Under the pieces are notes generated by a model. That model was not told the DNA's origin. It saw nothing but the letters and a program-made list of their open reading frames with translations, and ran no database searches. DNA of 29,439 nt from a virus. The stretch is taken from the IMG/VR virus record IMGVR_UViG_3300032304_002195, positions 1-29,439 of that record; one strand, given 5' to 3'. This document shows, in pieces, positions 2,552 to 29,439 of this stretch (its first letter is position 1; each line of letters opens with the position of its first letter). Position numbers and translations under genes: made by a program.

Positions 2552-4213
2552 TTAAAACTCCCATCTTTTATTTCCACCATTCATTATTTTAACAGCACCA
2601 ATCTCGTTCATCATTTGCTCCTCTGTTAAAGAAGGATCGAAACCCAATTTTATCAACTTCTTTTTTGTCCAATTTGATCTATGTTCCCCTTTACCATCTA
2701 TTAAATACCAGTAACCTGGCTTAGATTCGTGGATGAAGTTAAATCCTAATTTTTCATGCAATTCCCCACTAGATATCAAGTTGTCGGAATAGGTTACTAT
2801 TTTACTTGGTGAATAATTATCTATGAAATATTTCAATAACTTCGAAGCCCCACCAACCACATTTACAAATAATTTATTACAAAATCTAGTAAGTTCATAA
2901 GAATCCTTATCTCCATTCATAATAACCCTACCTTTTGAGAAAGACATAAAAGAAACTATTTCTTCATTAAAATATAATCCCAATCTAATGGAAGACTTAC
3001 AATCACCTTGTAAGTGATTATCATCTAAGAACTTCTTAGAATCTTTCCAAGATACTAATTTTATAGAACATTTTCTAGCTCCAATTTTACTTGGCGTCCC
3101 ACCAATCTTATTTAGTATAAAGGATTTACATATATTCATTTTCATGATCCATTCATCTTCCCATATAGTTATGATTGATATTCCCATTTCTTTAAAATAC
3201 TTAGTCTTATTCAAATGGTAGTTTTCTTCTTTGTATTTATCTGAATGCCACCAAAGTCCATTATATTCAAAACCTATATTTAATTCGGGTAGATAAATAT
3301 CTATTTCATACTTACCAATCCTTTTATTCTGTAAAACTTCCAAATCAGTATTCCCCGATACAAAGTGATATATTTCAATCTGTGACAAGGATGAGTTATC
3401 AGAAATGGGGAAGCATTTCGTACATGGGTTATGTCCATTATTTACCCTCCAATAAAATTGATATGGAAGTATATTAAATTCTTGTTTACATTCACCACAA
3501 TCGAATATAAGTGTAGTGGTTAAGTCCTTTTCAAACCTATTGAATGTGTAGTTACCATTTACTCTCTCTTCAATCCTTTTCCTATATTCAATATAGAAAT
3601 GTTCTGTTGTCTTCTTATGTATTTCTTTATTCATCCAAGGGTGTTCCACCCCATACTTTTCAATAGAGGATTTCTTAAATGAATCTTTAAAGTCAGAATT
3701 CTTGAATGAGTCAATTCTTTTATCTAAAAGTATTTTGGACTTGGAAGGATTATCCACACTCCAATTTTCCAATAGTGTTTCTTTAGACTTTTCCTTTATT
3801 TTATTATTTGACATTGGTGAATTTCCACCATATCTTTCAATATTGGTTTTTATTATCTTTTCTTTTATTGAATCTAATTGAGATGGGTGTTCAACTCCCC
3901 ATTTATTTATAGAGTTTATCTTTTTATTTTGTATTATGCTAGGATCTTTTGATATACACTTATTTGAACAATATTTAAGATATCCTATATTAGAGTTTTT
4001 AAACCTTACATTATTTACGCATTCAGGATTGACACACTTAGGGATTTCAGTTAATCCATTTATAGATAAATAAACCTTTTCCTTGAATGAACATTGTAAA
4101 TGGGTATATCCCTCGATAATAAAAGTATAGTGATCAGGATAGTTTTTTAATAAATAAGATTCTTTGAACATTCTACCAGATGGATCTGGTTGTTTAAAAA
4201 TAGAAAAATCCAT
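2552..4213 (-). CDS. Free-standing homing endonuclease, Vsr/PD-(D/E)XK type, 553 aa
   Basis: Site-specific DNA endonuclease that would spread its own gene. Two Cys clusters look like zinc-binding modules: C60, C65, C82, C86 and C239, C242, C264, C267. Between them, repeats such as KYGVEHPWMNKE and WGVEHPSQLDS recur at residues 105-200; these are DNA-binding repeats typical of phage homing enzymes. The nuclease core at residues about 278-356 contains E280, D305, E316, the run FEYNGLWWHSD and TIWEDEW. This matches the Vsr-like EDxHD fold of enzymes such as I-Bth0305I. The C-terminal 180 residues (SIRLGLYFN, LTRFCNK, GGASKLLKYF, YSDNLISSGELHEKLGF) are the extension usually found on these phage proteins. 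It stands alone between terminators, and its start codon lies in a hairpin. Enzyme class is confident; the target is unknown. Confidence 0.88.
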   Translation of the reverse strand: MDFSIFKQPDPSGRMFKESYLLKNYPDHYTFIIEGYTHLQCSFKEKVYLSINGLTEIPKCVNPECVNNVRFKNSNIGYLKYCSNKCISKDPSIIQNKKINSINKWGVEHPSQLDSIKEKIIKTNIERYGGNSPMSNNKIKEKSKETLLENWSVDNPSKSKILLDKRIDSFKNSDFKDSFKKSSIEKYGVEHPWMNKEIHKKTTEHFYIEYRKRIEERVNGNYTFNRFEKDLTTTLIFDCGECKQEFNILPYQFYWRVNNGHNPCTKCFPISDNSSLSQIEIYHFVSGNTDLEVLQNKRIGKYEIDIYLPELNIGFEYNGLWWHSDKYKEENYHLNKTKYFKEMGISIITIWEDEWIMKMNICKSFILNKIGGTPSKIGARKCSIKLVSWKDSKKFLDDNHLQGDCKSSIRLGLYFNEEIVSFMSFSKGRVIMNGDKDSYELTRFCNKLFVNVVGGASKLLKYFIDNYSPSKIVTYSDNLISSGELHEKLGFNFIHESKPGYWYLIDGKGEHRSNWTKKKLIKLGFDPSLTEEQMMNEIGAVKIMNGGNKRWEF

Positions 4214-10394: not shown

Positions 10395-10760
10395 TTATTT
10401 TTTATTTTTTTGGGTACCAATCATATCAAGAAGAAACTCCCTTTGTTTATCACTTAGATTTTCGGTCTTAATATCTTTGTATATACTAATAATTTTTTCA
10501 ATTTTACTTTTACCGAGACATTTCAATTGAATAGTGTAAAAGTTTAGGTCTTGCTCTAATTCATTTTTAAATGAAGGATTGGAATTCATTCTATATTTCT
10601 TTAGAATATTAAGATAATCCCTAAACCTTTCCTGATAAGAAGAAAAACTATTTTTCCATATTTGATGTTTTTCCTTTTTATACTCTTCTCTAATATTTGG
10701 TTTACCAAAACCAAACCATTTCTCGGATAAGAAAAAATCATAATCGATTAAGTGTTTCAT
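10395..10760 (-). CDS. Small protein with capsid-targeting-like N-terminus, 121 aa
   Basis: I recognise no domain. The N-terminus MKHLIDYDFFLSEKWFGFG has the shared tag pattern, and L11-S12-E13 fits a T4-type prohead protease site. The rest is helical and basic (KNSFSSYQERFRDYLNILKK, LGKSKIEKIISIYKDIK). It lies 6 bp after the 10767 gene and 2 bp before the 9058 gene, in the middle of the operon. Packaging in the head is inferred from the tag alone. Confidence 0.68.
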   Translation of the reverse strand: MKHLIDYDFFLSEKWFGFGKPNIREEYKKEKHQIWKNSFSSYQERFRDYLNILKKYRMNSNPSFKNELEQDLNFYTIQLKCLGKSKIEKIISIYKDIKTENLSDKQREFLLDMIGTQKNKK

Positions 10761-10766
10761 ATATAG

Positions 10767-11198
10767 TTATGGTAATGTTTGTAAATAGTTTTCCAAATCT
10801 TGGATATAAATATCTAGAGTAGTTTCAAATGATTCTGTGACGTTTCCTTTTACGTTTTTTGCGTTTCTTATTAGCAATTCGACCTTTTGTTTTTCAGTCA
10901 AGTTATTGTTACTTAGTATAATCCTCTGTCTATTTAAAAAATCAGCCTCCATCTGATGATAATATTGTTCTAGATCATCATCATTCATTCTGGTCATCAC
11001 TGCCAAAGATTCCAACTCATTCCTGAGTTGTTTTGCCAATCCATCTAATCCAACTTTTTTCACATAGATTTTACCTATTCTTAAAGTGGAATTTATCAAC
11101 CTACCTAAATAACTATCACCCCAACTAACGTCGTTGGTAAGTGATTCGTCTAACTTCTTTGCCCTTAAAAATTCTTCTCTTGATTTAAAATTTTTCAT
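10767..11198 (-). CDS. Small helical protein with capsid-targeting-like N-terminus, 143 aa
   Basis: Function unknown. It starts MKNFKSREEFLRAKKLDES, with L16-D17-E18|S19 matching a prohead protease site. The remainder is predicted mostly helical with amphipathic segments (LAKQLRNELESLAVMTRM, QMEADFLNRQRIILSNN) and no Cys. It has the size and composition of T4 internal or core proteins. It lies 1 bp downstream of the 11200 gene, so it is co-translated with it. Confidence 0.68.
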   Translation of the reverse strand: MKNFKSREEFLRAKKLDESLTNDVSWGDSYLGRLINSTLRIGKIYVKKVGLDGLAKQLRNELESLAVMTRMNDDDLEQYYHQMEADFLNRQRIILSNNNLTEKQKVELLIRNAKNVKGNVTESFETTLDIYIQDLENYLQTLP

Positions 11199-14223: not shown

Positions 14224-14658
14224 TTGAAGAAAATATTATCAAATATAATCTACTTTATAATCTATATTATTGAATCAATCGAATTATTCCATTATGACTT
14301 GGATGAAGATGATATAACTAAAAAAATATTATTTTCATCCAAGTTTAATAAAAAATTACTCTCAGATTCAGGATTTGTTAACACATCCAATATTCATATA
14401 ACACAACCTTATAGAATATGGGAACTGGAATTGGAAAATGGATTATACTTAGAATGTGCAGATAATCACATATTATTTAGACATGGATACTCAGAAGTAA
14501 GATGTAAAGACTTAAATATAGGTGACTACATACTTACAATTAATGGCGAGCAAAAAATAAGCAAACTTAAAAAAACCAATAAGAAGGTTTGTATGTTTGA
14601 TGTTACCGTAGATCATCCATCACATAGGTATTATACAAACGACATTTTAAGTCACAAT
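14224..14658 (+). other. C-intein segment of split TerL intein (145 aa)
   Basis: The segment ends with His144-Asn145 and is followed by Thr+1 (codon 14659-14661). It carries blocks B, F and G. The block B region lies in this half, so the split is upstream of block B, as in the AceL-TerL class of atypically split inteins. The first 35 residues are hydrophobic then acidic (IIYFIIYIIESIEL, HYDLDEDD) and may dock onto the basic tail of the N-intein. Confidence 0.92.
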
Positions 14659-16434
14659 ACTATTAATGCAGCTATAGTAATGCTTCATTATGTAACATTC
14701 AATAATGATAAAAACATTATGATTGTGGCTAACATAGCCGCCACAACCGTTGAAATCGTGGATAAGATAAAATCAATTTATACCTTATTACCATTCTTTC
14801 TAAAGATAGGAATTAAAAACTGGAACCAAAAAACAATCATATTTGAAAATGGTTGTAGAATAAAGTCTTCAGCTAGATCAAAAACACCAGCGATTGGTTT
14901 TACTATTGACTTTCTTTATATAGATGAGTTTGCTCATATACCAGCAAACATTATTGAGAATTATTATACGGCGGTATATCCAGTTGTTTCCGCTCTTGAA
15001 AACTCTAAAATAATTATCACATCTACCCCAAATGGTATGAATAAATTCTACCAAATATTAAATGATGCAGAAAGACCAGATGGAGATCCCCTTAAAAACT
15101 CTTATAGATCACTTAGAGTTTATTGGTATCAAGTTCCAGGCAGATTTGTTACTTATTGTAGACTAAATCCGTTTAGGTTAAAAGAATTTGGTGTAGATAA
15201 AGAATTTGTTTATAATCAACTAAATGAAAGATTCTCATCTAGAACAAAAACAATGATGAGGTTTGATTCTGAATTAACCAAAGATGTTATACACATATTC
15301 AATAACGAAGATGTTTCTGATGATGAAGTAAAATCTTTTATATTGAATATAGATGGACAAGAAGTTTCTATCAGATCTATTTCTGAAGTAACCACTTGGA
15401 AAGAAGAAAGTATTAAAAATATTGGAGGTGAAGATGCTTTTAACCAAGAATTCGGACTAAGGTTTATAAATGACTCTAAATCACTTTTAAATGAAACAAT
15501 AGTAGAAAAAATGTTACAAAACAAAAAGAATTTTATTTGGGAAAGGATAGATGAACTAGATAGAAGGTTAAAATTTTCTTATGAGGATCTAAAATGGATA
15601 GATGATGATTCTATCTATCAACCAATAGTAAGAAAACAAATAAGAGGGGTTATCTCTGTTGATATTGCTGAAGGACTAGGTCAGGATTATTCAGTTATAA
15701 ACATATTTAAAATATCCTTAAAATCAGCAGATGTAATAGAAAGAACTAGACATAAATATACACACCTATCGGATTTCTTTTGTTTGGAACAAATAGGCAT
15801 GTTTAGATCTAATTGGGTTTCAGTAAAACAATTGACTGAGATATTCTATGTTTTACAATTCGAATATTTTAACGATGAAAACTTTAAAGTTGTTTTAGAA
15901 CTTAACAACTATGGTAATGAATTTTTAGCTCACCTTCCCCACTTATTCGAAGGAAATAACAATTATGGTTCTGGTGTTTTCTTAAAATACAAACACAGAG
16001 CGGATGCAACAGAAGAGAAAATTGGATTGAAAGTTGGTGAAAACAAAAATTTACTGGTTAAGTCCTACCAAGAATGTATGGATATAGGTAACTTCTTAAT
16101 CTACAATGATCAAAATATAAAAGAGATCACCACATTTGTTAAAAGAGAGACAACATCAGGCAATATTAAATACTGCGCTGATATCGGTAATGATGATACT
16201 GTTATGACCTTGGTTAATGCTTCTTCTGTATTTCAAAAACACTCATTTAGAGAAATGGTTGAAGATTATGCTAGAACATTGGATCCAAGTATAATTAGCT
16301 CTTTCAATACATGGTTAAATCAAAATGAAGATCTAATACAAGCAACAGACTATTCATCTTTAATAAATGCCAATAGGGAAAGAAGGTTTAATCAACAATA
16401 TAAAGAAATGAGTTTAGGGAGAAGATTTTTCTAA
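14224..16434 (+). CDS. Large terminase (TerL), C-terminal half, preceded by a C-intein
   Basis: Encodes most of the DNA-packaging motor, but only as a trans-splicing partner. Residues 1-145 are a C-intein: KLLSDSGFVNTSNIHITQPY, then block B-like ECADNHILF, DLNIGDYI, block F CMFDVTVDHPSHRYYTNDI and block G LSHN145. The next residue, T146, completes the Walker A motif missing here. The mature part has Walker B FLYIDE (230-235), the coupling motif TSTPNG (about 265), and the RNase H-like nuclease with D480 (VDIAEG), E559 (LELNNYG) and D657/D658 (IGNDD). The partner is the gene at 19611-20111, on the opposite strand. No ATG is available in frame before residue 124. TTG 14224 is the likeliest start; an ATG frame (14196-14273) runs into it in another frame. 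The gene ends just before the terminator at 16437. Confidence 0.95.
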   Translation: MKKILSNIIYFIIYIIESIELFHYDLDEDDITKKILFSSKFNKKLLSDSGFVNTSNIHITQPYRIWELELENGLYLECADNHILFRHGYSEVRCKDLNIGDYILTINGEQKISKLKKTNKKVCMFDVTVDHPSHRYYTNDILSHNTINAAIVMLHYVTFNNDKNIMIVANIAATTVEIVDKIKSIYTLLPFFLKIGIKNWNQKTIIFENGCRIKSSARSKTPAIGFTIDFLYIDEFAHIPANIIENYYTAVYPVVSALENSKIIITSTPNGMNKFYQILNDAERPDGDPLKNSYRSLRVYWYQVPGRFVTYCRLNPFRLKEFGVDKEFVYNQLNERFSSRTKTMMRFDSELTKDVIHIFNNEDVSDDEVKSFILNIDGQEVSIRSISEVTTWKEESIKNIGGEDAFNQEFGLRFINDSKSLLNETIVEKMLQNKKNFIWERIDELDRRLKFSYEDLKWIDDDSIYQPIVRKQIRGVISVDIAEGLGQDYSVINIFKISLKSADVIERTRHKYTHLSDFFCLEQIGMFRSNWVSVKQLTEIFYVLQFEYFNDENFKVVLELNNYGNEFLAHLPHLFEGNNNYGSGVFLKYKHRADATEEKIGLKVGENKNLLVKSYQECMDIGNFLIYNDQNIKEITTFVKRETTSGNIKYCADIGNDDTVMTLVNASSVFQKHSFREMVEDYARTLDPSIISSFNTWLNQNEDLIQATDYSSLINANRERRFNQQYKEMSLGRRFF

Positions 16435-16475: not shown

Positions 16476-16994
16476 TTATTCGTCTTCAAGTCTAATTCTA
16501 TTAGGCTTACGACCATATTTACGATACCTAGTATATTTTGCATCTTTATTAAGAAAGTATCCTGCGGGTTCATTGACCCCATCTTCGAATTCATTACAAG
16601 CTTCTATAAATTTCTTATAATCTTTTTCACTCATTAGCTGTTTAGCTCTTTTATAGAATTCATTTCTAATCTCGAAAGCTTCTTCCCTTTCTATATTTCT
16701 TCCTTCTTCTTCGCCGAAATATAAGTTATTTTTGTGTTTTTCTAGTTCCATCAACAAATCTTTTATTTTTGGATCATCTTGTATCTTAGCAAAGAGCGGA
16801 CCTATTGTTGATTTCGCTATTTCGAAATCAAGTTTATCAAACAATTCACTCACTTTTTCATATCCACGAAAAAGACCATAACACACAAATGGTGTTGCGA
16901 GTTGCATTAATGCAACTGTTATTAGGTCAGAGTCAGTCGATTCATATACGGCCGTGTATTGTTGAAAAGTTCTTATATTTTTCATTTTTTTCAT
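16476..16994 (-). CDS. Tagged protein with one hydrophobic segment, 172 aa
   Basis: Function unknown. The N-terminus MKKMKNIRTFQQYTAVYESTD carries the shared tag, and V16-Y17-E18|S19 is a near match to a prohead protease site. Residues about 24-44 (LITVALMQLATPFVCYGLF) are hydrophobic enough for a membrane segment. The rest is charged and helical, with a basic tail (YTRYRKYGRKPNRIR). M4 (ATG 16985) is an alternative start. It is the last gene of the minus-strand terminase operon. A box TTTTTAATATATAA at 17001-17014 lies 6 bp before its ATG. Confidence 0.66.
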   Translation of the reverse strand: MKKMKNIRTFQQYTAVYESTDSDLITVALMQLATPFVCYGLFRGYEKVSELFDKLDFEIAKSTIGPLFAKIQDDPKIKDLLMELEKHKNNLYFGEEEGRNIEREEAFEIRNEFYKRAKQLMSEKDYKKFIEACNEFEDGVNEPAGYFLNKDAKYTRYRKYGRKPNRIRLEDE

Positions 16995-18117: not shown

Positions 18118-19599
18118 TTAAACCTTTGGTATAATTCCCCTAAATTTTGGGTTTATTTTAACCCAATTAGATAGGTCATATTTGAAACTATCACATCCAT
18201 AAAAAATATCTTCCATTTTAGTAACCTTACTAATATTCCATTTGGATATATCACAATTGAAGTTTTTACACCTTTTGAACATGTATTCCATATTCTTAAC
18301 ATTACTAACATTCCATTTTGATATGTCACAATTAAAGTATCTCCAACCATAAACCATATAACTCATATCAGTTACATTACTAACATCTAAGAAATTTAGA
18401 TCAGCATCATTTCCCATCTTATCTACTAAATGTTCAACTATTTTTTTTATGTTATTGTCATTTAATTTAGTATTTTTTACAATATTAATATATTTATCAA
18501 TAGGTATTGCTTTACCCCCACCAGAATTAAAGTAATCATGTTTTTGTTTATTATTGAACTTATTATAAATACTATTATCAAAATTAACATACTCATCTAA
18601 ACTATGAACTAGAAAGTCCAATATCGATTCGTTCTTCAAATCTACATTTGGTATAGTTCCGGTGTCTTCAAAAGTTCCCATTAATGCAGCGATTTGGTCT
18701 TCTAAATTATTACTAGGATTTACTTTTTCTGGATTATTGTAGTAATAATCATCTATTTCTTTATAAGAAAATATACTTTTATCTATTAACTTTAACCTAG
18801 AATTAAAGGATAATACTTTTTCATATGTTAAATCATTTTTAGTTTGGTTAATGATGTTAGTAAAGTCAAATTCACCTTTATTATTTAACATAACAACATT
18901 AATTTCGTTATTTTTATCAGGTGAGTTATAATCATAAATATACCATATATTATTTTTTCCTCCATAAACATAACTTCCATACATAACGGGTCCAGTTATA
19001 CAGAAACTGGTTTTTTTACCTAATAGTTGACTATCTCTAAGAGAGTTAACTCTAAAAACCTTTATATTACCATTATCATATTCTGCAACTGGTTTTAACC
19101 CTTCTAGATTTGGATTTATTTTGGTTCCAGGATTTCTTTTATTATACAACTCGGTATATAATTCATGAAGTTTTAAAATGAATTTATCTTCATCACTTAT
19201 TAATGATTTTAAAATACTTTTTAATTTATCTTTGTTGTCACTTGAATTAATTAAATCCTTGTATTTATCAATATCATCTTTAATAAGTTCCTTATTATGT
19301 TTAAATTTAAACAACTCTGGTATATCCATTTCAGATTTAACACCGGTATTTTTAAGATTATCATAGACGGAATCCAAATATTTTAAATAGTCTTCATATT
19401 TACTTTTATATTTAAGTGCATTATTATCAGTACTTTTGGATACAATTTCTTTTAATTTATCCGAATAGTTCTTGTTAAACTCCTTGAATTGTTCATCAGA
19501 CAACTTATAGTTTCGTTGAACACCTTTTAAAAAGGATTCTACATTAAATTCGGCCTCTTTTATAAGCCTATATCCATTATAACTCTTTATATATCTCAT
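18118..19599 (-). CDS. Tagged protein with BspA-type leucine-rich repeats, 493 aa
   Basis: Possible head-packaged effector. The N-terminus MRYIKSYNGYRLIKEAEF has the tag, with I13-K14-E15|A16 fitting prohead protease. Residues about 20-150 are helical. Residues about 182-205 (FRVNSLRDSQLLGKKTSFCI) and the following GGKNNIWYIYDY belong to an 'lGk-T-[WF]C' type module that I have the impression recurs in large phages; its activity is unknown to me. Residues about 401-485 are DUF285/BspA-like repeats (LDVSNVTDMSYMV, FNCDISKWNVSNVKNMEYMF, and again with ISKVTKMED), a repeat class usually found in surface proteins that bind other proteins. The gene starts 11 bp after the TerL N-half stop. LRR identity is secure; the role is not. 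Confidence 0.72.
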   Translation of the reverse strand: MRYIKSYNGYRLIKEAEFNVESFLKGVQRNYKLSDEQFKEFNKNYSDKLKEIVSKSTDNNALKYKSKYEDYLKYLDSVYDNLKNTGVKSEMDIPELFKFKHNKELIKDDIDKYKDLINSSDNKDKLKSILKSLISDEDKFILKLHELYTELYNKRNPGTKINPNLEGLKPVAEYDNGNIKVFRVNSLRDSQLLGKKTSFCITGPVMYGSYVYGGKNNIWYIYDYNSPDKNNEINVVMLNNKGEFDFTNIINQTKNDLTYEKVLSFNSRLKLIDKSIFSYKEIDDYYYNNPEKVNPSNNLEDQIAALMGTFEDTGTIPNVDLKNESILDFLVHSLDEYVNFDNSIYNKFNNKQKHDYFNSGGGKAIPIDKYINIVKNTKLNDNNIKKIVEHLVDKMGNDADLNFLDVSNVTDMSYMVYGWRYFNCDISKWNVSNVKNMEYMFKRCKNFNCDISKWNISKVTKMEDIFYGCDSFKYDLSNWVKINPKFRGIIPKV

Positions 19600-19603
19600 G
19601 AAT

Positions 19604-19616
19604 CTATATATTAAAA
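19604..19616 (-). promoter_or_regulatory. Candidate phage promoter box TTTTAATATATAG
   Basis: It lies 4 bp before ATG 19599 and overlaps the end of the TerL N-half gene (stop 19611-19613). It may give the downstream genes their own transcript. Confidence 0.38.
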
Positions 19617-20111
19617 CTTAAAAAGTATATTATATAATGATATTTTTAACTTTTCTAAAAATGTTAGGTTTCTTTCCATAGACTTTATTGTGTAATATAA
19701 TATCCCAATTCTAACCTTTTCACCAGACTCTAGATTGACCAAAGTATTAAATGTAACACATTTACCAATCTGTCTTGAACCCATTAGTATACTGAATCTA
19801 TTTTTGGTATATAAATCCAGTATATTATATTGATAATCTCTCAATTTTATGTGTGATATGTTTCCTTCTTCAGTTTTTACTTTGCAGTATTTTTCAGCGA
19901 AATAATAAATGTCTTTAGAACATTTAACCCACTCTTGTATTTGTTCATCGGTCCACGCAAAGGTTATACCCGATCTTCTAACACCCACTTGGTTTTCAAA
20001 CCAAGGGTTTTCATAACGCTTAATAACAACACCATCATTTATTTTATTTGTTATTTCTTCTACATTCTTACTTGTAAAAACAAATCTTTTTTCTTCCTGT
20101 GCTTTAACCAT
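19611..20111 (-). CDS. Large terminase (TerL), N-terminal half fused to an N-intein, 166 aa
   Basis: Residues 1-117 are the start of TerL: ITFAWTDEQIQEWVKCSKDI, FAEKYCKVKTEEGN, HIKLRDYQYNILDLY, then Walker A GSRQIGK (111-117). These are the usual T4-type gp17 features up to the ATP-binding loop. At that point Cys118 begins an intein block A (CVTFNTLVNLESGEKVRIG), followed by a basic, helical tail (TFLEKLKISLYNILFKF) and a stop. The Walker A Thr is absent here and is supplied by the C-half at 14659. The two halves splice into about 708 residues. The gene overlaps the stop of the upstream probable small terminase by 1 bp (TAATG). This half alone cannot bind ATP normally. Confidence 0.95.
   Translation of the reverse strand: MVKAQEEKRFVFTSKNVEEITNKINDGVVIKRYENPWFENQVGVRRSGITFAWTDEQIQEWVKCSKDIYYFAEKYCKVKTEEGNISHIKLRDYQYNILDLYTKNRFSILMGSRQIGKCVTFNTLVNLESGEKVRIGILYYTIKSMERNLTFLEKLKISLYNILFKF
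19614..19760 (-). other. N-intein segment of split TerL intein (49 aa)
   Basis: It starts at the Cys118 codon directly after the Walker A Lys and carries only block A. It is longer than the 25-residue AceL-TerL N-intein because of an added segment, SMERNLTFLEKLKISLYNIL, which looks like the linker that follows block A in contiguous TerL inteins. The tail is basic, opposite to the acidic start of the C-intein. Confidence 0.9.
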
Positions 20112-20830: not shown

Positions 20831-21943
20831 TTATTCAACAAGTCCGTAAAATTCGGATCTAATATCAATAAGTAGACTATTAACTAAGTTTGGATCAACA
20901 GAATTTGGTAAATTAGAATTGTCAAAAAGTTTACGTATTGATTTAATCATCAACTCACTCTCTTCTATAATGGTTTCTAAATTGACCTTTCCTTTCCTTA
21001 TAGATAATAAATATTCAGCGTCTGGCCTTTCTACAATAACTCCCAAACCTTCGGATATTTCTTTGGCCATACGTAGCAATCTGACGCAGTGCATCATATT
21101 CTTTCCATCAATCTTCTGATTATGTTCCTCAACATCAACCCATCTAGATTCATTTCTATTTTCTAACCATTCCGTATATGATTTATAATCTTTACAGTGC
21201 TGTGTATATGAGTCGCTGTTATAAACTATAGTACAAAATGGCGTTTCCCCTTTTGGTATTGATGATAGTCTAAGTTGATTTGACTTTTCCTCATCACCAA
21301 CTACTCCAAAATATCCCTTATTCGAATCCGAATCATAATATAGGGCGAAGCAGTTTTGCGCGTTTGGTATATTAACCGCTCCAATTTTAGAAATGTCCAA
21401 TTTATTTAATTCTACATATTCTCGGAATGGTTTGCTTTTTTCTCCATCTAATATGTAACAGAAATCTAAAATAGACTTCCTTACCATTCTATCATTTTCC
21501 CAGTTAACTTTTTTATTCTGTCCCTTTGCTTTTGAGATTTGTTGTACTCCATATCCACCAAAAGTGTTTGAACATTTTTTCGTTAAGAATTGGTCCTTTT
21601 TATCGAGTATCAAATCGAAAATTGGATCTTTATACATTATGAATTCATCTGGAGTATTTACAATCTCCAATATATTTGGGTTATTTTGTTCCAACAACTC
21701 CAAAAAACGACTAACTTCATAGAATACAGTATCATTTTTATCATCACTGATCTGTTCTTTATACCGATTACCTAGAATGTCCGATAGACTTTGTATATAA
21801 ATACCACAATAATCAGTATCGGAATTGGGTAAGTTCGTACCATATACTTGAGATCCCCTCATTACAATTAATATGGGTTGGGCACCATTTACTTTTGAAT
21901 TTACTAAATTTTCAAGTTTTTTTAGTTCTATTAAAAAAGACAT
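20831..21943 (-). CDS. RNA-repair-type nucleotidyltransferase (RlaP/YcgL-like, PF10127), 370 aa
   Basis: Pol-beta-superfamily nucleotidyltransferase. The signature is MRGSQVYGTNLPNSDTDYCG at residues 28-47, with G30-S31 and the metal-binding pair D42 and D44. Later conserved pieces include FGGYGVQQISKAKGQ near 128-142 and the helical MMHCVRLLRMAKEI near 295. The family is found in predicted RNA repair systems in bacteria and phages, often beside ligases and kinases, and may act on cleaved tRNA ends. The N-terminus has no capsid tag, so it probably acts in the infected cell. It lies 25 bp after the ClpS gene in the same unit. The fold is confident; the substrate is inferred. Confidence 0.85.
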   Translation of the reverse strand: MSFLIELKKLENLVNSKVNGAQPILIVMRGSQVYGTNLPNSDTDYCGIYIQSLSDILGNRYKEQISDDKNDTVFYEVSRFLELLEQNNPNILEIVNTPDEFIMYKDPIFDLILDKKDQFLTKKCSNTFGGYGVQQISKAKGQNKKVNWENDRMVRKSILDFCYILDGEKSKPFREYVELNKLDISKIGAVNIPNAQNCFALYYDSDSNKGYFGVVGDEEKSNQLRLSSIPKGETPFCTIVYNSDSYTQHCKDYKSYTEWLENRNESRWVDVEEHNQKIDGKNMMHCVRLLRMAKEISEGLGVIVERPDAEYLLSIRKGKVNLETIIEESELMIKSIRKLFDNSNLPNSVDPNLVNSLLIDIRSEFYGLVE

Positions 21944-21968: not shown

Positions 21969-22247
21969 CTAGATCGACTCAACTGTACATGATAATTTTT
22001 TTGAGATAAGCTTTTCTTTAATCTTTGTTAATGATTCGTAATCTCCTCTTTTAACATCACACATACCAACGTAGTGAACAATGTTCGCACATTGACTTGC
22101 CTGTTGATAGGTATGTTCACAAATTGATATTAGACAATTTATAACATGATCAAAAGAATTATAATCATCATTATGAAGTATAAGAGCAAATGGCTCTGTT
22201 AGTTTTTCTTTAAGAATTGATTTTTTCTGTGACTTTGTTTTTATCAT
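21969..22247 (-). CDS. clpS: ClpS-like adaptor of the Clp protease, 92 aa
   Basis: Phage-encoded homologue of the ClpS adaptor, which binds N-degron substrates and hands them to ClpA/ClpC-ClpP. Residues 19-90 cover the whole ClpS core: EPFALILHNDDYNSFDHVIN, then CEHTYQQASQCANIVHYVG and a C-terminal LSCTVE. The N-degron pocket residues corresponding to E. coli N34, D35 and H66 appear as N26, D27 and H58. The pattern 'NDD.N.FDHVI..L...CEHT..QA.QCA.IVHY.G' is that of Bacteroidota ClpS, which suggests capture from the host. It has only a short N-terminal extension. TATAAATA lies 5 bp before its ATG. It could redirect host proteolysis or protect phage proteins. Confidence 0.92.
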   Translation of the reverse strand: MIKTKSQKKSILKEKLTEPFALILHNDDYNSFDHVINCLISICEHTYQQASQCANIVHYVGMCDVKRGDYESLTKIKEKLISKKLSCTVESI

Positions 22248-22251
22248 ATAT

Positions 22252-22758
22252 CTATTTATAGTTTTTATATATGGTTTTGTTCACAACATCCACCACAACA
22301 ACTTCCAATAGTTGTCTATCAGCCCATTCCCTAAACCTAGGAAGGTGTTCTTGCCTGTCATCATAAATGGTGAACCTTTCTGGTTTATGTTTTGCAATCA
22401 TCCTTTCAAACAATCTACATTTAAAGTAGAATGTATCGCCACCTGTGTTGCAATAAACCTCATCTACGTCAATGCCGTTCATTTCGAGAATATGTCTAAC
22501 ATACTTTTCCAATTTTAAAATTCTTCCAGTAGCTACAAATACGTGTTTGTTTGGGTCTGATAAATCCGCAACAATTCTTTTATAAGTCCATCCGTTTACA
22601 GGAAATTCTAAAAAATCAGTGTTCAAGCTTTCGGCTTGTCCCCACCAATCATTTCTTGGCCATTTCATACCAGATCTAAACTCCCATTGTTTAATTCCCT
22701 CATCTGGCCCAGGTGAGTGAATAAGAGTTTCATCGAAATCATAAGATACAAGTTCCAT
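22252..22758 (-). CDS. HAD phosphatase of the Swiss-army-knife RNA repair type (PF10307-like), 168 aa
   Basis: Probable nucleic-acid-end phosphatase. It begins MELVSYDFDETLIHSPGP with the HAD nucleophile pair D7 and D9 and T11. Motif II is VFVATGR (T77), a lysine follows at K113, and motif IV is IYDDR (D133, D134). All four HAD motifs are thus present. The early GPDEGIKQWEFRSG with W25 matches the RNA-repair HAD group. I use ATG 22758, not the upstream TTG. It lies 4 bp before clpS, and two genes away is an RNA-repair nucleotidyltransferase, so the unit may repair RNA cleaved by host defences. The family is likely; the substrate is inferred. Confidence 0.82.
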   Translation of the reverse strand: MELVSYDFDETLIHSPGPDEGIKQWEFRSGMKWPRNDWWGQAESLNTDFLEFPVNGWTYKRIVADLSDPNKHVFVATGRILKLEKYVRHILEMNGIDVDEVYCNTGGDTFYFKCRLFERMIAKHKPERFTIYDDRQEHLPRFREWADRQLLEVVVVDVVNKTIYKNYK

Positions 22759-22796
22759 ATATTTATATATATAATACAAATATAAACAAAAATACT

Positions 22797-23589: not shown

Positions 23590-24234
23590 ATGAAGCATAT
23601 CAAACTATTCGATTCTTATAGAAACAAAAGAAGAAGAGATGAGATAATTAAGGAATCTGTAATGCAAGTAAATGATATTTACAAAGTTAAAACTATGGTA
23701 GATATTCCTCAATCATTGATCAACTCTTATGTTAAAAAAGTAAAATCAAATACTGGTAAAGATTTAAGACAATTCTTTGGGGATATGGATTTAGCAGAAG
23801 AAGTTGTTAAATGGGTCACATTAAACAACCTAGATGCTGATAAAATACCAGCTAACGCTTTAGTCGGTGGATCACAAATGGGACAAGGACAAGGACAAGG
23901 ACAGATGCAGGGCCAAGGCCAGATGCAAACTCAACCACAGGGTCAAGCCCAAACACAATCTCAACCACAAGGTCAACCACAAGGCCAAGGTCAAGGTCAA
24001 GGAGAATTTGAGGATATAGTCCCACAAGGCCAAGGACAGGGACAGGCTCAAGGTCAAGGACAGGGTCAAGGTCAAGGTCAAGGACAGGCTCAAGGACAAG
24101 GACAGGCTCAAGGCCAAGGTCAGGCTCAAGGCCAAAGACAAGGTCAGGCTCAAGGACAGGGTCAAGTTCAAGTGCAAACACAAGGACAAGGACAAGGACA
24201 AGAAGAAGAGGAAGACGAAGAACTTCCATTATAA
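23590..24234 (+). CDS. Tagged protein with long Gln-Gly repeat, 214 aa
   Basis: Unknown function; head packaging or scaffold suspected. Residues 1-22 hold the tag MKHIKLFDSYRNKRRRDEII, with I20-K21-E22|S23 fitting a prohead protease site. Residues about 23-95 form a small helical domain (PQSLINSYVKKVKSNTG, LAEEVVKWVTLNN). Residues about 96-203 are almost pure QG dipeptides with some QA, QP and QT, broken once by EFEDIVP. The protein ends in EEEEDEELPL. The repeat is very hydrophilic and probably disordered. The gene has the promoter-like box shared with the sheath gene and its own terminator, which fits late expression. Confidence 0.75.
   Translation: MKHIKLFDSYRNKRRRDEIIKESVMQVNDIYKVKTMVDIPQSLINSYVKKVKSNTGKDLRQFFGDMDLAEEVVKWVTLNNLDADKIPANALVGGSQMGQGQGQGQMQGQGQMQTQPQGQAQTQSQPQGQPQGQGQGQGEFEDIVPQGQGQGQAQGQGQGQGQGQGQAQGQGQAQGQGQAQGQRQGQAQGQGQVQVQTQGQGQGQEEEEDEELPL
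23876..24201 (+). repeat. Degenerate CAAGGA/CAAGGT hexanucleotide repeat (Gln-Gly coding)
   Basis: About 50 imperfect copies of caagga, caaggt, cagggt and caggct. The variation is mostly at third positions, so the amino acid pattern is under selection even though the DNA varies. Confidence 0.9.
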
Positions 24235-24290: not shown

Positions 24291-24905
24291 ATGATATATT
24301 TAGAGTCATATCAAAGTTTCCCAAATGGAGGAACCCTAATAGTTGTAGATGTTCAGAAAAGCTTTAAAAAGTTTTTTTCTGAAAATTACGTAGAGGTTTT
24401 GAAAAAATACTGCAATAACTTTTCACAGGTCTATCAAATATTTGATAATCACAATGAGGGTAAGGATGTTGATTTGGACTATTTATATGATGATCATCCC
24501 GATACACCTGTTACAAATGATTTATATGAATTTCCCAACCAAAAGGGATTGATAGAGAAAAGATATAACTATGATGTTGATATAGATTTTTACAAAAAAA
24601 TTGTAACTAAGGAAGTATACGATAAAGTAAAGTCTATGGAGAATAACAAATCTCTAACAAGAGGTATGATGTTTCCCACAAATCAAGGAACCGTTTTGGT
24701 TTATATAGGAAATAATCACCAATGGTTTCATGTACCAAAAAAGTTATATGAGTTGTTTAAGAAGTTAAAAGGTCAAACTGTACATATGGCAGGTGGATCA
24801 AGAGATGAATGTTTCTTAGATGTAGAAACTACAGCAAAATCCATGGGTGTGGATATAAAGATAGACTATAAGTACACTTATTCAGCTAATGGAAGTTTAC
24901 TATAA
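24291..24905 (+). CDS. Isochorismatase-like hydrolase family protein, 204 aa
   Basis: Probable cysteine-hydrolase fold. The core starts at TLIVVDVQKSF, with D20 and Q22 in the place of the family's DxQ motif, followed by YQIFDNHN. The later TVHMAGGSRDECFLDVETTA places C174 at the catalytic cysteine position, followed by the usual amphipathic helix and strand (SMGVDIKIDYKYTYS). The usual catalytic lysine between them is not obvious, and a 70-residue insertion separates the motifs, so activity is uncertain. The first ten residues (MIYLESYQSF) vaguely resemble the shared tag. It overlaps the convergent gene at 24900 by 6 bp. Confidence 0.72.
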   Translation: MIYLESYQSFPNGGTLIVVDVQKSFKKFFSENYVEVLKKYCNNFSQVYQIFDNHNEGKDVDLDYLYDDHPDTPVTNDLYEFPNQKGLIEKRYNYDVDIDFYKKIVTKEVYDKVKSMENNKSLTRGMMFPTNQGTVLVYIGNNHQWFHVPKKLYELFKKLKGQTVHMAGGSRDECFLDVETTAKSMGVDIKIDYKYTYSANGSLL

Positions 24906-25325
24906 GTCAAACATTTTTATAAATTCATAATCTACGTCAAAATTTGATATAGCATAATCAAAATCTATTTTTGATTTATTACTGGCTAATGTTTCAACTA
25001 GATATTTTGAGAAATCAGCATACTTTACTAGGCGTGAAATCCCATCAACTTGGATGTCATAAAACATTGGTTGTTCATTTAAAATTATCCTAAACATCAA
25101 AAGATAGTAGTCATCATCAATCGCCTTTATGATTAAACTATTTCCATATCGGCTAAAATTTTGATTATCTGATACCACTATGTTGTTTTTTGATTTCCCA
25201 TATATATAATCAATTTCTTTTTTATTTAAAGGCCTACTATACTTCAACGTATGGGTTATTCCTTCAAGATTTAATTTTTTCCAAACCTTGTCCTGAAAAT
25301 TTTCAAATATCTTTATATGATTCAT
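24900..25325 (-). CDS. Tagged small protein, 141 aa
   Basis: No recognised domain. The N-terminus MNHIKIFENFQDKVWKK is a clear copy of the shared tag, but no exact [IL]-x-E site follows (nearest is NLE at 19-21). The rest appears as an alpha/beta domain (NNIVVSDNQNFSRYGNSLII, DDYYLLMFRIIL) with an acidic C-terminus. It is downstream of the 25334 gene by 8 bp. The leader is TTAAATATATATATG, with the TATA-like run touching the start codon. Confidence 0.65.
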   Translation of the reverse strand: MNHIKIFENFQDKVWKKLNLEGITHTLKYSRPLNKKEIDYIYGKSKNNIVVSDNQNFSRYGNSLIIKAIDDDYYLLMFRIILNEQPMFYDIQVDGISRLVKYADFSKYLVETLASNKSKIDFDYAISNFDVDYEFIKMFDL

Positions 25326-27281: not shown

Positions 27282-27313
27282 AAAAAAATCTACCAATTAT
27301 GGTAGATTTTTTT
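27282..27313 (+). terminator. Terminator of the 26836 gene
   Basis: 13-bp stem aaaaaaatctacc-aattat-ggtagattttttt, starting 23 bp after the stop. The stem-loop ends in a T run on the plus strand. Confidence 0.88.
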
Positions 27314-27379
27314 ATTTTCAAGGTTTTTATAAAAAAAATATTTTTTCAACTAATTCTATTTTTTCACATATACATCTAT

Positions 27380-28228
27380 ATGTCTAAAATTTGTATTTTA
27401 CAACCAAATACTAAAATAATAAACTATGTTCCAACCGGAACTCAAACAACTAGAGAAAACTCAAAAGCTCCTTTAACATCCCAAGAAATAATTGAGGATG
27501 TACAAAGAGCTTATGAGTTAGGCATAACTTTAACTCACCTACACGCTAGAGACAACGATTTAAAAAATACTTATAAAACAGAATTTTATAATGAAATAAT
27601 TGAAGGACTAAGGAAACACTGCAAAGATTTAGTAATATGTGTATCACTAAGTGGTAGACTATTTAATGATTTTGATAAAAGAACGGAAGTTTTAGAGTTG
27701 ATGCCTGATATGGCTTCTTTAACATTATCTTCTTTGAACTTTCCAAGTTCTGCTTCAGTGAATGACTTTGATACAATTATAAAAATATTGGAAAAAATGA
27801 AGGTGTTTGGTGTTATTCCAGAACTAGAATGTTTTGACTCAGGTATGGTAAATTTTTCAAAGTATTTATTCGATAGAAATTATTTAGAAGGACCAGTATA
27901 TTATAATATAATTCTTGGTAATTTATTCAATGCTCAATGTCAGCTTTCTACCTTATCTGATATAAAAAACTCCTTAATAAAAGAATCCGTATCAACTTTA
28001 GGTGGAATAGGAAATCAACAACTTAAAAGTAACCTATTTGGATTATTGGAATTTGATGGTATAAGAATTGGATTAGAAGATAACCTTTATTTAAGATCAA
28101 AAGAAAAAGCGACAAATCACGAGTTACTTGAAAGAATATTGAGAATAATGAAGGAATTGGACTTAAAAGTTCTTTCCTCTAAAGATCTAAAAGATATAGG
28201 ATTTGTCAACAAAATGTCAAATCTATAG
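27380..28228 (+). CDS. BKACE-family protein (beta-keto acid cleavage enzyme, DUF849-like), 282 aa
   Basis: Predicted TIM-barrel enzyme of the family that cleaves or condenses beta-keto acids with acetyl-CoA. Early motifs fit: INYVPTGTQTTRE, then PLTSQEIIEDVQRAYELGIT and LTHLHARD with the zinc ligands H53 and H55. Later come CVSLSGR, SLTLSSLNFP, PELECFD and a C-terminal GLEDN. Start chosen at ATG 27380; an upstream TTG frame crosses the preceding terminator and encodes an implausible hydrophobic leader. It is followed 10 bp later by the acyltransferase gene and then a DegT aminotransferase gene, so in this cassette it probably makes or modifies a sugar-like or amino-acid-like building block. 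Family fairly secure; reaction unknown. Confidence 0.78.
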   Translation: MSKICILQPNTKIINYVPTGTQTTRENSKAPLTSQEIIEDVQRAYELGITLTHLHARDNDLKNTYKTEFYNEIIEGLRKHCKDLVICVSLSGRLFNDFDKRTEVLELMPDMASLTLSSLNFPSSASVNDFDTIIKILEKMKVFGVIPELECFDSGMVNFSKYLFDRNYLEGPVYYNIILGNLFNAQCQLSTLSDIKNSLIKESVSTLGGIGNQQLKSNLFGLLEFDGIRIGLEDNLYLRSKEKATNHELLERILRIMKELDLKVLSSKDLKDIGFVNKMSNL

Positions 28229-28238
28229 TATAAAAAAT

Positions 28239-28865
28239 ATGAAAATAGTTCTTGGTAAAAGTGAAGACACTATAACGATGGTATTGGATAATTTATCATC
28301 AAACCATGATTTTGGCAATGTATCAATATTCAATAATTTAAAACTTGATTCAAAAGAAGATATTTATCACCCTGACTTTACTATATCTATAGTAGAAGAG
28401 ATGACCTTAACTGATATATCGGAATTTATTTTAGGCATCTATAATCCAAATCCAAAAAAGAAGATAATAGAATCATTTGGATTTAAACCATATAGATTCG
28501 TAAATGTAGTTCATAAAAGTGCTCAGATATCCTTAACAACTTCATTGGGATATGGATGTTTAATAAATTCTAATGTTTCCATAGCAGGAAAATCATCAAT
28601 AGGAGATTTTGTTTCTATAAATAGAAATAGTTCAATAGGACACCACACCATCATAGAAAATTTTTGTTCGATAAATCCAGGATCCAATATAGCTGGACAT
28701 TGTCATATAGGAGAAGGCACATTAATTGGAATGGGTTCTCAGGTTTTAAATGGTATCAGTATTGGAAAAAACTCAATCATAGGAGCAGGTTCAGTTGTAA
28801 CAAAAGATATACCTGACAATGTTGTTGCTTGGGGATCACCTTGTAAAATACAAAGATATGCCTAG
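28239..28865 (+). CDS. NeuD/PglD-type hexapeptide acyltransferase, 208 aa
   Basis: Probable acetyl- or acyl-CoA-dependent N- or O-acyltransferase of sugar biosynthesis. The N-terminal ~75 residues replace the usual nucleotide-sugar binding domain. From residue about 85 it is a left-handed beta helix: SLGYGCLINSNVSIAGKSSI, then NSSIGHHTIIENF with the catalytic His candidate, NIAGHCHIGEGTLIGMGSQV, and the standard end IGAGSVVTKDIPDNVVAWGS. I start at ATG 28239; a longer frame overlapping the previous gene is less likely. Its last 8 bp overlap the start of the aminotransferase gene (ATGCCTAG), implying coupling. PglD and NeuD homologues act right after a DegT-type aminotransferase, and one is next door. 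Confidence 0.9.
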   Translation: MKIVLGKSEDTITMVLDNLSSNHDFGNVSIFNNLKLDSKEDIYHPDFTISIVEEMTLTDISEFILGIYNPNPKKKIIESFGFKPYRFVNVVHKSAQISLTTSLGYGCLINSNVSIAGKSSIGDFVSINRNSSIGHHTIIENFCSINPGSNIAGHCHIGEGTLIGMGSQVLNGISIGKNSIIGAGSVVTKDIPDNVVAWGSPCKIQRYA

Positions 28866-29439
28866 AGATATTTATAAAATAACAGAAGAATTTGAAAATA
28901 GACTTTCAGAATATACAGGAGCACCTTATGTTGTTTGTGTGGATAGTTGTTCCAATGCTTTATTTTTGAGTTTATATTATATAAATATAAATGGTTTAGA
29001 GATTTCTATACCTTCAAGAACTTACCCATCTGTTCCTTGTGAAATAATTCATGCTGGAGGCAAGGTTAAATTCTTAGAATCTTCTGATAAGTTAAAAGGT
29101 GCCTACCAGTTATACCCAACAAATGTTTGGGACTCTGCTTTAAGATTCACTGCGGACATGTATATACCAGAATCTTTTATGTGTGTATCCTTTTCAGGAC
29201 CTTATAAACACTTAAAACTATCAAAAGGTGGTGCAATATTAACAGACAACGAAGAAGCTTATAGATGGTTTAAAAGAGCTAGATTCTCAGGTAGGAATGA
29301 ATGTTCTTATAATCAGGATAACTTCGATATGTTGGGATGGAATTTTTATATGTTACCAGAAATATCTACCAGGGGATTATTACTTATAAATGGTTTTTAT
29401 AACCCAGATGGTACTAAAAAGTATAATGAAGATTTGGAA
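28858..29439 (+). CDS. DegT/DnrJ/EryC1 aminotransferase, 5' part (194 codons, runs off window)
   Basis: PLP-dependent sugar aminotransferase. It starts MPRDIYKITEEFENRLSEYT, then GAPYVVCVDSCSNALFLSLY, the cofactor-phosphate binding start of the DegT family (usually V..sGT.AL). IPSRTYPSVPCEIIHAGGKV follows, then WDSALRF and SFSGPYKHLKLSKGGAI, which puts the PLP lysine at K117. The end reads RWFKRARFSGR and FYMLPEISTRG, all in family order. It would add an amino group to a keto sugar (or keto intermediate) that the neighbouring acyltransferase then acylates. The C-terminal half is outside the window. Confidence 0.92.
   Translation, partial: MPRDIYKITEEFENRLSEYTGAPYVVCVDSCSNALFLSLYYININGLEISIPSRTYPSVPCEIIHAGGKVKFLESSDKLKGAYQLYPTNVWDSALRFTADMYIPESFMCVSFSGPYKHLKLSKGGAILTDNEEAYRWFKRARFSGRNECSYNQDNFDMLGWNFYMLPEISTRGLLLINGFYNPDGTKKYNEDLE

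Follow-up and report, generated by a model that had tools for sequence, protein, structure and literature searches.

A phage-encoded ClpS adaptor with a conserved N-degron pocket and host ClpC as its probable partner

Phage-encoded ClpS adaptors are known from earlier work. The Agrobacterium phage Atu_ph07, described in 2018, encodes ClpS (gp708, AUZ95447.1) along with ClpA, ClpP, ClpX, and ClpB (PMC6102473), and Iyer et al. noted in 2021 that several jumbo phages encode a ClpS likely bringing targets to host ClpAP (PMC7824862). A full-text literature search on phage-encoded ClpS and ClpP, which did not cover most subscription journals, gave no further reports. Here, we analyzed a phage genome fragment of 29,439 bases, the entire IMG/VR record IMGVR_UViG_3300032304_002195 (hereafter, the window), in which region 21969-22247 encodes a complete ClpS; all data on ClpP and ClpC come from its relatives. 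The window gene adds a member to a known kind. However, the earlier mentions were made in passing and without tests, whereas here ClpS emerges as a widespread core gene with relatives in at least 464 viral contigs, and its pairing with a phage ClpC devoid of the N-domain is apparently undescribed in the literature searched. This raises testable questions about the N-degrons relevant in infection, about whose ClpC is engaged, and about viral control over protease adaptors.

The described systems differ from this one in their Clp complement. In the jumbo phages of Iyer et al. (e.g., AMM43882.1), likened here by their description, ClpS is present "instead" of ClpP, whereas in the group studied here both occur in one genome. 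Atu_ph07 resembles the relatives of the window in being a jumbo phage with ClpS and further Clp genes, but it shows the reverse of the pattern reported below: its ClpA keeps the N-domain, and its ClpS pocket looks degenerate. The Atu_ph07 ClpS (L225:31272-31574, minus strand) scores as ClpS with 4e-18 and has HDD for NDD. Because equivalents of the Escherichia coli pocket residues Asn34 and His66 are absent, it may bind something else, or it may act on ClpA only. Two huge phages, LR756502 and LR745206 (635-642 kb), share the ClpS lineage and the surrounding gene order with the group of the window; these records are without annotation and carry ClpP and a ClpC without N-domain.

The plus strand of 21969-22247 is full of stops, and in the open reading frame analysis of the window the complete frame lay on the minus strand, which the initial annotation had left unstated.

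21969..22247, minus strand: ClpS adaptor of 92 amino acids with ATG start and TAG stop, identified by Pfam PF02617, structure model, and fold matches

The Pfam ClpS family (PF02617) scored 60.4 bits over residues 18-85 (cut-off, 23; E value, 1.5e-16), and PHROGs returned a weak family match to phrog_27368, "ATP-dependent protease." An AlphaFold2 model, built from 52 sequences in an alignment without rows from the phage-record collection, had a mean predicted local distance difference test (pLDDT) score of 83.6, with most of the core above 90 and the strand and helix order of ClpS. The model gave 38 matches in the PDB at an E value of at most 0.001, nearly all of them ClpS and some with bound N-degron peptides. 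Among the best were 9ayo, ClpS of M. smegmatis with Phe-Ala (template modeling [TM] score by target 0.95, root mean square deviation 0.7), and 1r6o, in which E. coli ClpS is complexed with the N-domain of ClpA. The complete ClpS core claimed initially is borne out by the domain match and the fold.

When the window protein was aligned with the PDB sequence of E. coli ClpS, N26, D27, F32, and H58 fell on N34, D35, M40, and H66; the list of pocket residues in Caulobacter and E. coli ClpS was drawn from PMC12493166. The three pocket residues named in the initial annotation (N26, D27, and H58) had been placed correctly.

22164..22172, minus strand: N-degron pocket residues N26, D27, and D28, with 100% conservation among the 72 distinct phage sequences
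22152..22154, minus strand: F32 at the gatekeeper position, which is occupied by Met40 in E. coli ClpS and by Phe in every phage-clade and bacterial sequence compared
22074..22076, minus strand: pocket residue H58 (His66 in E. coli ClpS), assigned by alignment and conservation

Residues N26, D27, N30, F32, V35, and H58 were identical across 72 distinct phage-clade and 79 bacterial sequences, and D28 was found in 72 of the 72 distinct phage sequences and 88% of the bacterial ones. Because the pocket residues equal those of bacterial relatives, the window ClpS is expected to select N-degrons as host ClpS does. Bacteroidota ClpS proteins (e.g., L064, L065, and L071) share this pocket and the Phe gatekeeper at 37-58% identity, but differ from the window ClpS in an acidic N-terminal extension, the absence of the junction proline, and E51 as well as other group-specific residues. 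Positions distinguishing phage from bacterial ClpS include 29, 51, 55, 64, 67, 73-75, 77, 81, 82, and 88, among others. E. coli ClpS (1r6o, 3o2b, and 2w9r) has the same fold and the N34/D35/H66 pocket, but is only about 24% identical, has Met40 rather than Phe as the gatekeeper, and is partnered with ClpA.

The N-terminal extension is the part in which phage and bacterial proteins diverge in charge.

22191..22247, minus strand: N-terminal extension, residues 1-19, MIKTKSQKKSILKEKLTEP, basic, of low model confidence, ending at junction proline P19

Residues 1-15 mostly had pLDDT values below 50. The mean net charge of the extension was +1.6 in phage versus -3.7 in bacterial ClpS (Mann-Whitney, 2.8e-19, kinship among the sequences being ignored). 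P19 was invariant across the phage clade; E. coli ClpS has two junction prolines and the phage protein one. Since ClpS inserts its extension into the pore of ClpA and prolines at the junction guard ClpS against its own degradation (PMC9663308), extension and junction would be sensible sites for a phage to tune delivery.

Scanning IMG/VR yielded 58 loci with the window protein as the query and at least 464 loci with the alignment as the query, and three phage records of 635-642 kb also matched. We built a tree from 77 phage and 79 bacterial ClpS proteins over 75 columns, in which the window ClpS fell within a phage-only clade of 73 rows with a support of 89/89, just below the strict threshold. 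E. coli ClpS served as the outgroup; across residues 26-76, the sequence used was the same as in the PDB alignment. Within the phage clade, clpS is under purifying selection, with a median ratio of nonsynonymous to synonymous substitution rates (dN/dS) of 0.16 over 588 pairs. Gene order is conserved as well: in 88 of 113 viral loci with flanks, a HAD_SAK_1 gene lies at most two genes upstream of clpS and the terminase gene at most three genes downstream. Because the HAD/ClpS/terminase arrangement is conserved across loci, clpS can be counted among the core genes of the group. The view that it was recently borrowed from a host was not supported, given the phage-only clade, the fixed gene order, and the purifying selection.

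These results bear on the initial designation of the gene as a ClpS of host type. The Bacteroidota-like character of the sequence held, since the closest bacterial ClpS sequences among the matches listed were nearly all from Bacteroidota, which makes this phylum the likely host and the likely older source of the phage gene. A recent host origin did not hold: the phylogeny proposed as a check placed the window ClpS in a phage-only lineage beside Bacteroidota ClpS, not nested among host sequences. As the bacterial set comprised the best 80 matches listed, the tree does not place the source within Bacteroidota. Phages seem to have acquired ClpS more than once, because the phage rows L055, L056, L059, and L062 fall among bacterial sequences; L055, L056/L059, and L062 look like separate gains.

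We surveyed Clp partners in 20 phage records and 18 Bacteroidota genomes with ClpS. ClpS was single-copy in all 20 phage records. ClpP was present in 12 of them, with as many as three copies per record, and visual inspection of the main copies showed the catalytic Ser-His-Asp motifs. Seven records contained a two-ring ClpC-like unfoldase; an intein half interrupts the one in the record of L021. A Clp_N domain was found in none of the 20. Starting at the first ring, the ClpC proteins of LR745206 and LR756502 share 70-75% identity with Bacteroidota ClpC, but they begin only about 45 residues ahead of this ring, the N-domain being gone. Phage ClpC keeps the D1 and D2 rings and an M-domain-like insert (matches to AAA, AAA_lid_9, AAA_2, ClpB_D2-small, and UVR), and a crude pattern for the ClpP-docking loop, [VI]GF, was found in 72 of 80 viral ClpC proteins. 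The N-domain was present in 34 of these 80 genes (L227-L306) and absent from 46. Five of 26 long records with ClpC also had ClpS, all with ClpC of the N-domain-less class. Where both genes were present, ClpC was without N-domain in 12/12 records, which, being few, related, and partly incomplete, provide a pattern rather than a test. Clp_N-bearing Hsp100 genes were found in all 18 Bacteroidota genomes. Aat, which makes N-degrons, was encoded in 13 of these genomes and in none of the 20 phage records; the idea that phages produce N-degrons via an Aat of their own was rejected.

Since classical docking needs the N-domain, which is supplied only by the host, phage ClpS most likely works through host ClpC, to which we assign a probability of roughly 0.55. 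When ClpA of Leptospira is deprived of its N-domain, ClpS no longer affects ATPase activity (PMC12493166). We propose that a lineage of huge phages, whose hosts are probably Bacteroidota, keeps a working ClpS adaptor as a core gene. Judging from its identical residues, the pocket would bind proteins starting with Phe, Tyr, Trp, or Leu, like that of host ClpS. Phage ClpS would dock on the N-domain of host ClpC, its basic N-terminal extension would be inserted into the ClpC pore, and the bound protein would be passed on and degraded by ClpP of the host or the phage. ClpS also diverts ClpA and ClpC from other substrates, so that N-degron turnover might go up and other ClpCP work might go down during infection. 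The redirection of host proteolysis by phage ClpS that was suggested initially is plausible, and the idea had been put forward before for the ClpS of jumbo phages (PMC7824862). It is tempting to speculate further, if only tentatively, that huge phages divided the N-degron machinery between themselves and the host: they would have acquired ClpC from a Bacteroidota host and deleted precisely its adaptor-binding N-domain, so that phage ClpC-ClpP works independently of host adaptors, while phage ClpS captures host ClpC for N-degron substrates. As a variant, phage ClpS may dock on phage ClpC by a novel mode that does without the N-domain.

Several points weigh against this explanation. The E. coli docking residues E79, E82, and K84 are not kept as such in phage or Bacteroidota ClpS: the equivalent of E79 (E71) is acidic in most sequences, and those of E82 and K84 are kept in neither group. 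As this applies to phage and Bacteroidota proteins alike, docking cannot be read from the sequence. LinClpS2 still binds N-domain-less ClpA moderately (PMC12493166), and docking elsewhere than on the N-domain is therefore possible. Moreover, it is not obvious what a phage-made copy would add to the ClpS that the host already has, the assignment to a host phylum is deduced from similarity only, and the conserved position beside the terminase gene could hint at a different role.

Phage ClpS might instead feed the N-domain-less phage ClpC together with ClpP, through its basic extension or another surface, and thereby serve a phage-run N-degron protease. The joint presence of ClpS and ClpP in 12 of the 20 records, with catalytic motifs in the main ClpP copies, would fit this view, as would the occurrence of ClpS, ClpP, and ClpC in all four records above 450 kb of that set and the retention of D1, D2, and the VGF-type loop in phage ClpC. 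The charge of the phage ClpS extension would also match the acidic start of the N-domain-less phage ClpC, but an acidic stretch is found in the host ClpC linker too. We regard such a protease as doubtful, considering that phage ClpC is missing the docking domain, that clpS, clpC, and clpP lie far apart in phage records, and that 21 of the 26 long phage records with ClpC, many of them fragments, are without ClpS.

Occupation of host ClpC by phage ClpS as an inhibitor or decoy, sparing phage proteins or blocking other tasks of ClpC with delivery being secondary, is rather unlikely. The extension charge, strongly unlike that of the host protein, and the invariant junction proline are in line with such a role. 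However, the pocket shows 100% conservation across 72 sequences, although a pure decoy could do without one, and the ClpS extension tolerates wide change without loss of delivery (PMC9663308).

A role in head assembly or packaging, in clearing maturation fragments or as a terminase-associated factor, would agree with the conserved position next to terminase and structural genes but is highly improbable, considering that the predicted maturation N-termini are mostly not N-degrons (see below), that the phage clpS genes of L055, L056, L058, L059, and L062 lie in other contexts, and that other genes separate clpS from the terminase pieces in the window.

N-terminal tags like MKHIKLFDSYR...IKE/S (the slash marks the cut) are present on the window proteins encoded at 1699-2280, 10395-10760, 10767-11198, 16476-16994, 18118-19599, 23590-24234, and 24900-25325. 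They resemble a capsid-targeting sequence of the T4 type and have an [ILV]xE cut site, after which the predicted N-terminal residue is mostly Ser or Ala; the phage ClpC proteins L203 and L204 begin with a similar MKKLKLYELF. The initial annotation had suggested a possible link of the tags and the prohead protease with type 2 N-degrons and proposed a check of the N-termini predicted after cleavage. We predicted [ILVM]xE/ cut sites from the T4-like consensus in two tagged families, which comprised 41 and 32 distinct N-termini, respectively, as well as in the window's own tagged proteins. In the best-conserved family of 41 distinct members, the predicted new N-terminus was Ser in 30 and Ala in 11; in the second, it was Ala (6), Asn (6), Glu (5), Thr (5), Ser (4), or Met, Gly, Val, and Asp (1 each). 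At the best-supported sites of both families and of the window's own tagged proteins, Phe, Tyr, Trp, and Leu were absent among the predicted new N-termini, which were mostly Ser, Ala, Thr, Asn, and Glu, and the proposed link did not find support. Choosing the first site in the second family gives, among others, Arg, Lys, Tyr in a few cases, and Leu in one, and the predicted cut LSE/K in the window protein 10395-10760 would expose a possible secondary degron, so that a minor link between cut sites and N-degrons might exist.

Among the genes on the window fragment are those for a terminase, a tail sheath, and a collagen-like tail fibre. Close to clpS and in its conserved neighborhood, the following genes were assigned.

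22252..22779, minus strand: HAD phosphatase-like protein (HAD_SAK_1), the conserved upstream partner of clpS, with a 4 bp gap in the window
20831..21943, minus strand: RlaP-type nucleotidyltransferase, 25 bp after clpS in the window and not a usual neighbor among relatives
14224..16434, plus strand: C-terminal part of the terminase large subunit, including an intein C-half; in relatives, the terminase gene is the downstream neighbor of clpS

Where the HAD gene directly adjoins clpS, the two share a strand and are separated by a median of 14 bp; the terminase gene is usually convergent. In the window, the HAD gene is in its usual place (HAD_SAK_1, 9.4e-10 for the relative in L061), and the terminase pieces lie farther left on opposite strands. 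These terminase halves, at 19611-20111 (minus strand) and 14224-16434 (plus strand), carry intein halves at Walker A, with the junctions ...GSRQIGK/CVTFNTLVNL... and ...DILSHN/TINAAIVML... (slashes mark the junctions). Because the halves are on opposite strands and about 3 kb apart, a whole terminase would need protein trans-splicing. The short intein N-half resembles the atypical split intein AceL-TerL. In the relatives L024, L039, L041, and L148, a further open reading frame lies between the terminase halves, in some of them a homing-endonuclease relative. The D2 Walker A of ClpC in L221 (IMGVR_UViG_3300023174_000033, 464 kb) is split by the apparent C-half of another split intein, with the junction ...YYTNGLLSHN/TQLAKVL....

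Three further regions of the window are of note. The gene at 18118-19599 (minus strand) encodes a protein of 493 amino acids with DUF285, a Mycoplasma-type repeat, and a tag-like N-terminus; this protein was not found among the relatives compared. A free-standing homing endonuclease (phrog_3339, 2.5e-114) is encoded at 2552-4213 (minus strand) and adjoins the tail sheath gene. The region 27299-29439 (plus strand) encodes a beta-keto acid cleavage enzyme (BKACE; Pfam, 1e-57), unusual in a phage, along with genes of the sugar-nucleotide type for a hexapeptide acyltransferase and for an aminotransferase of the DegT/DnrJ family.
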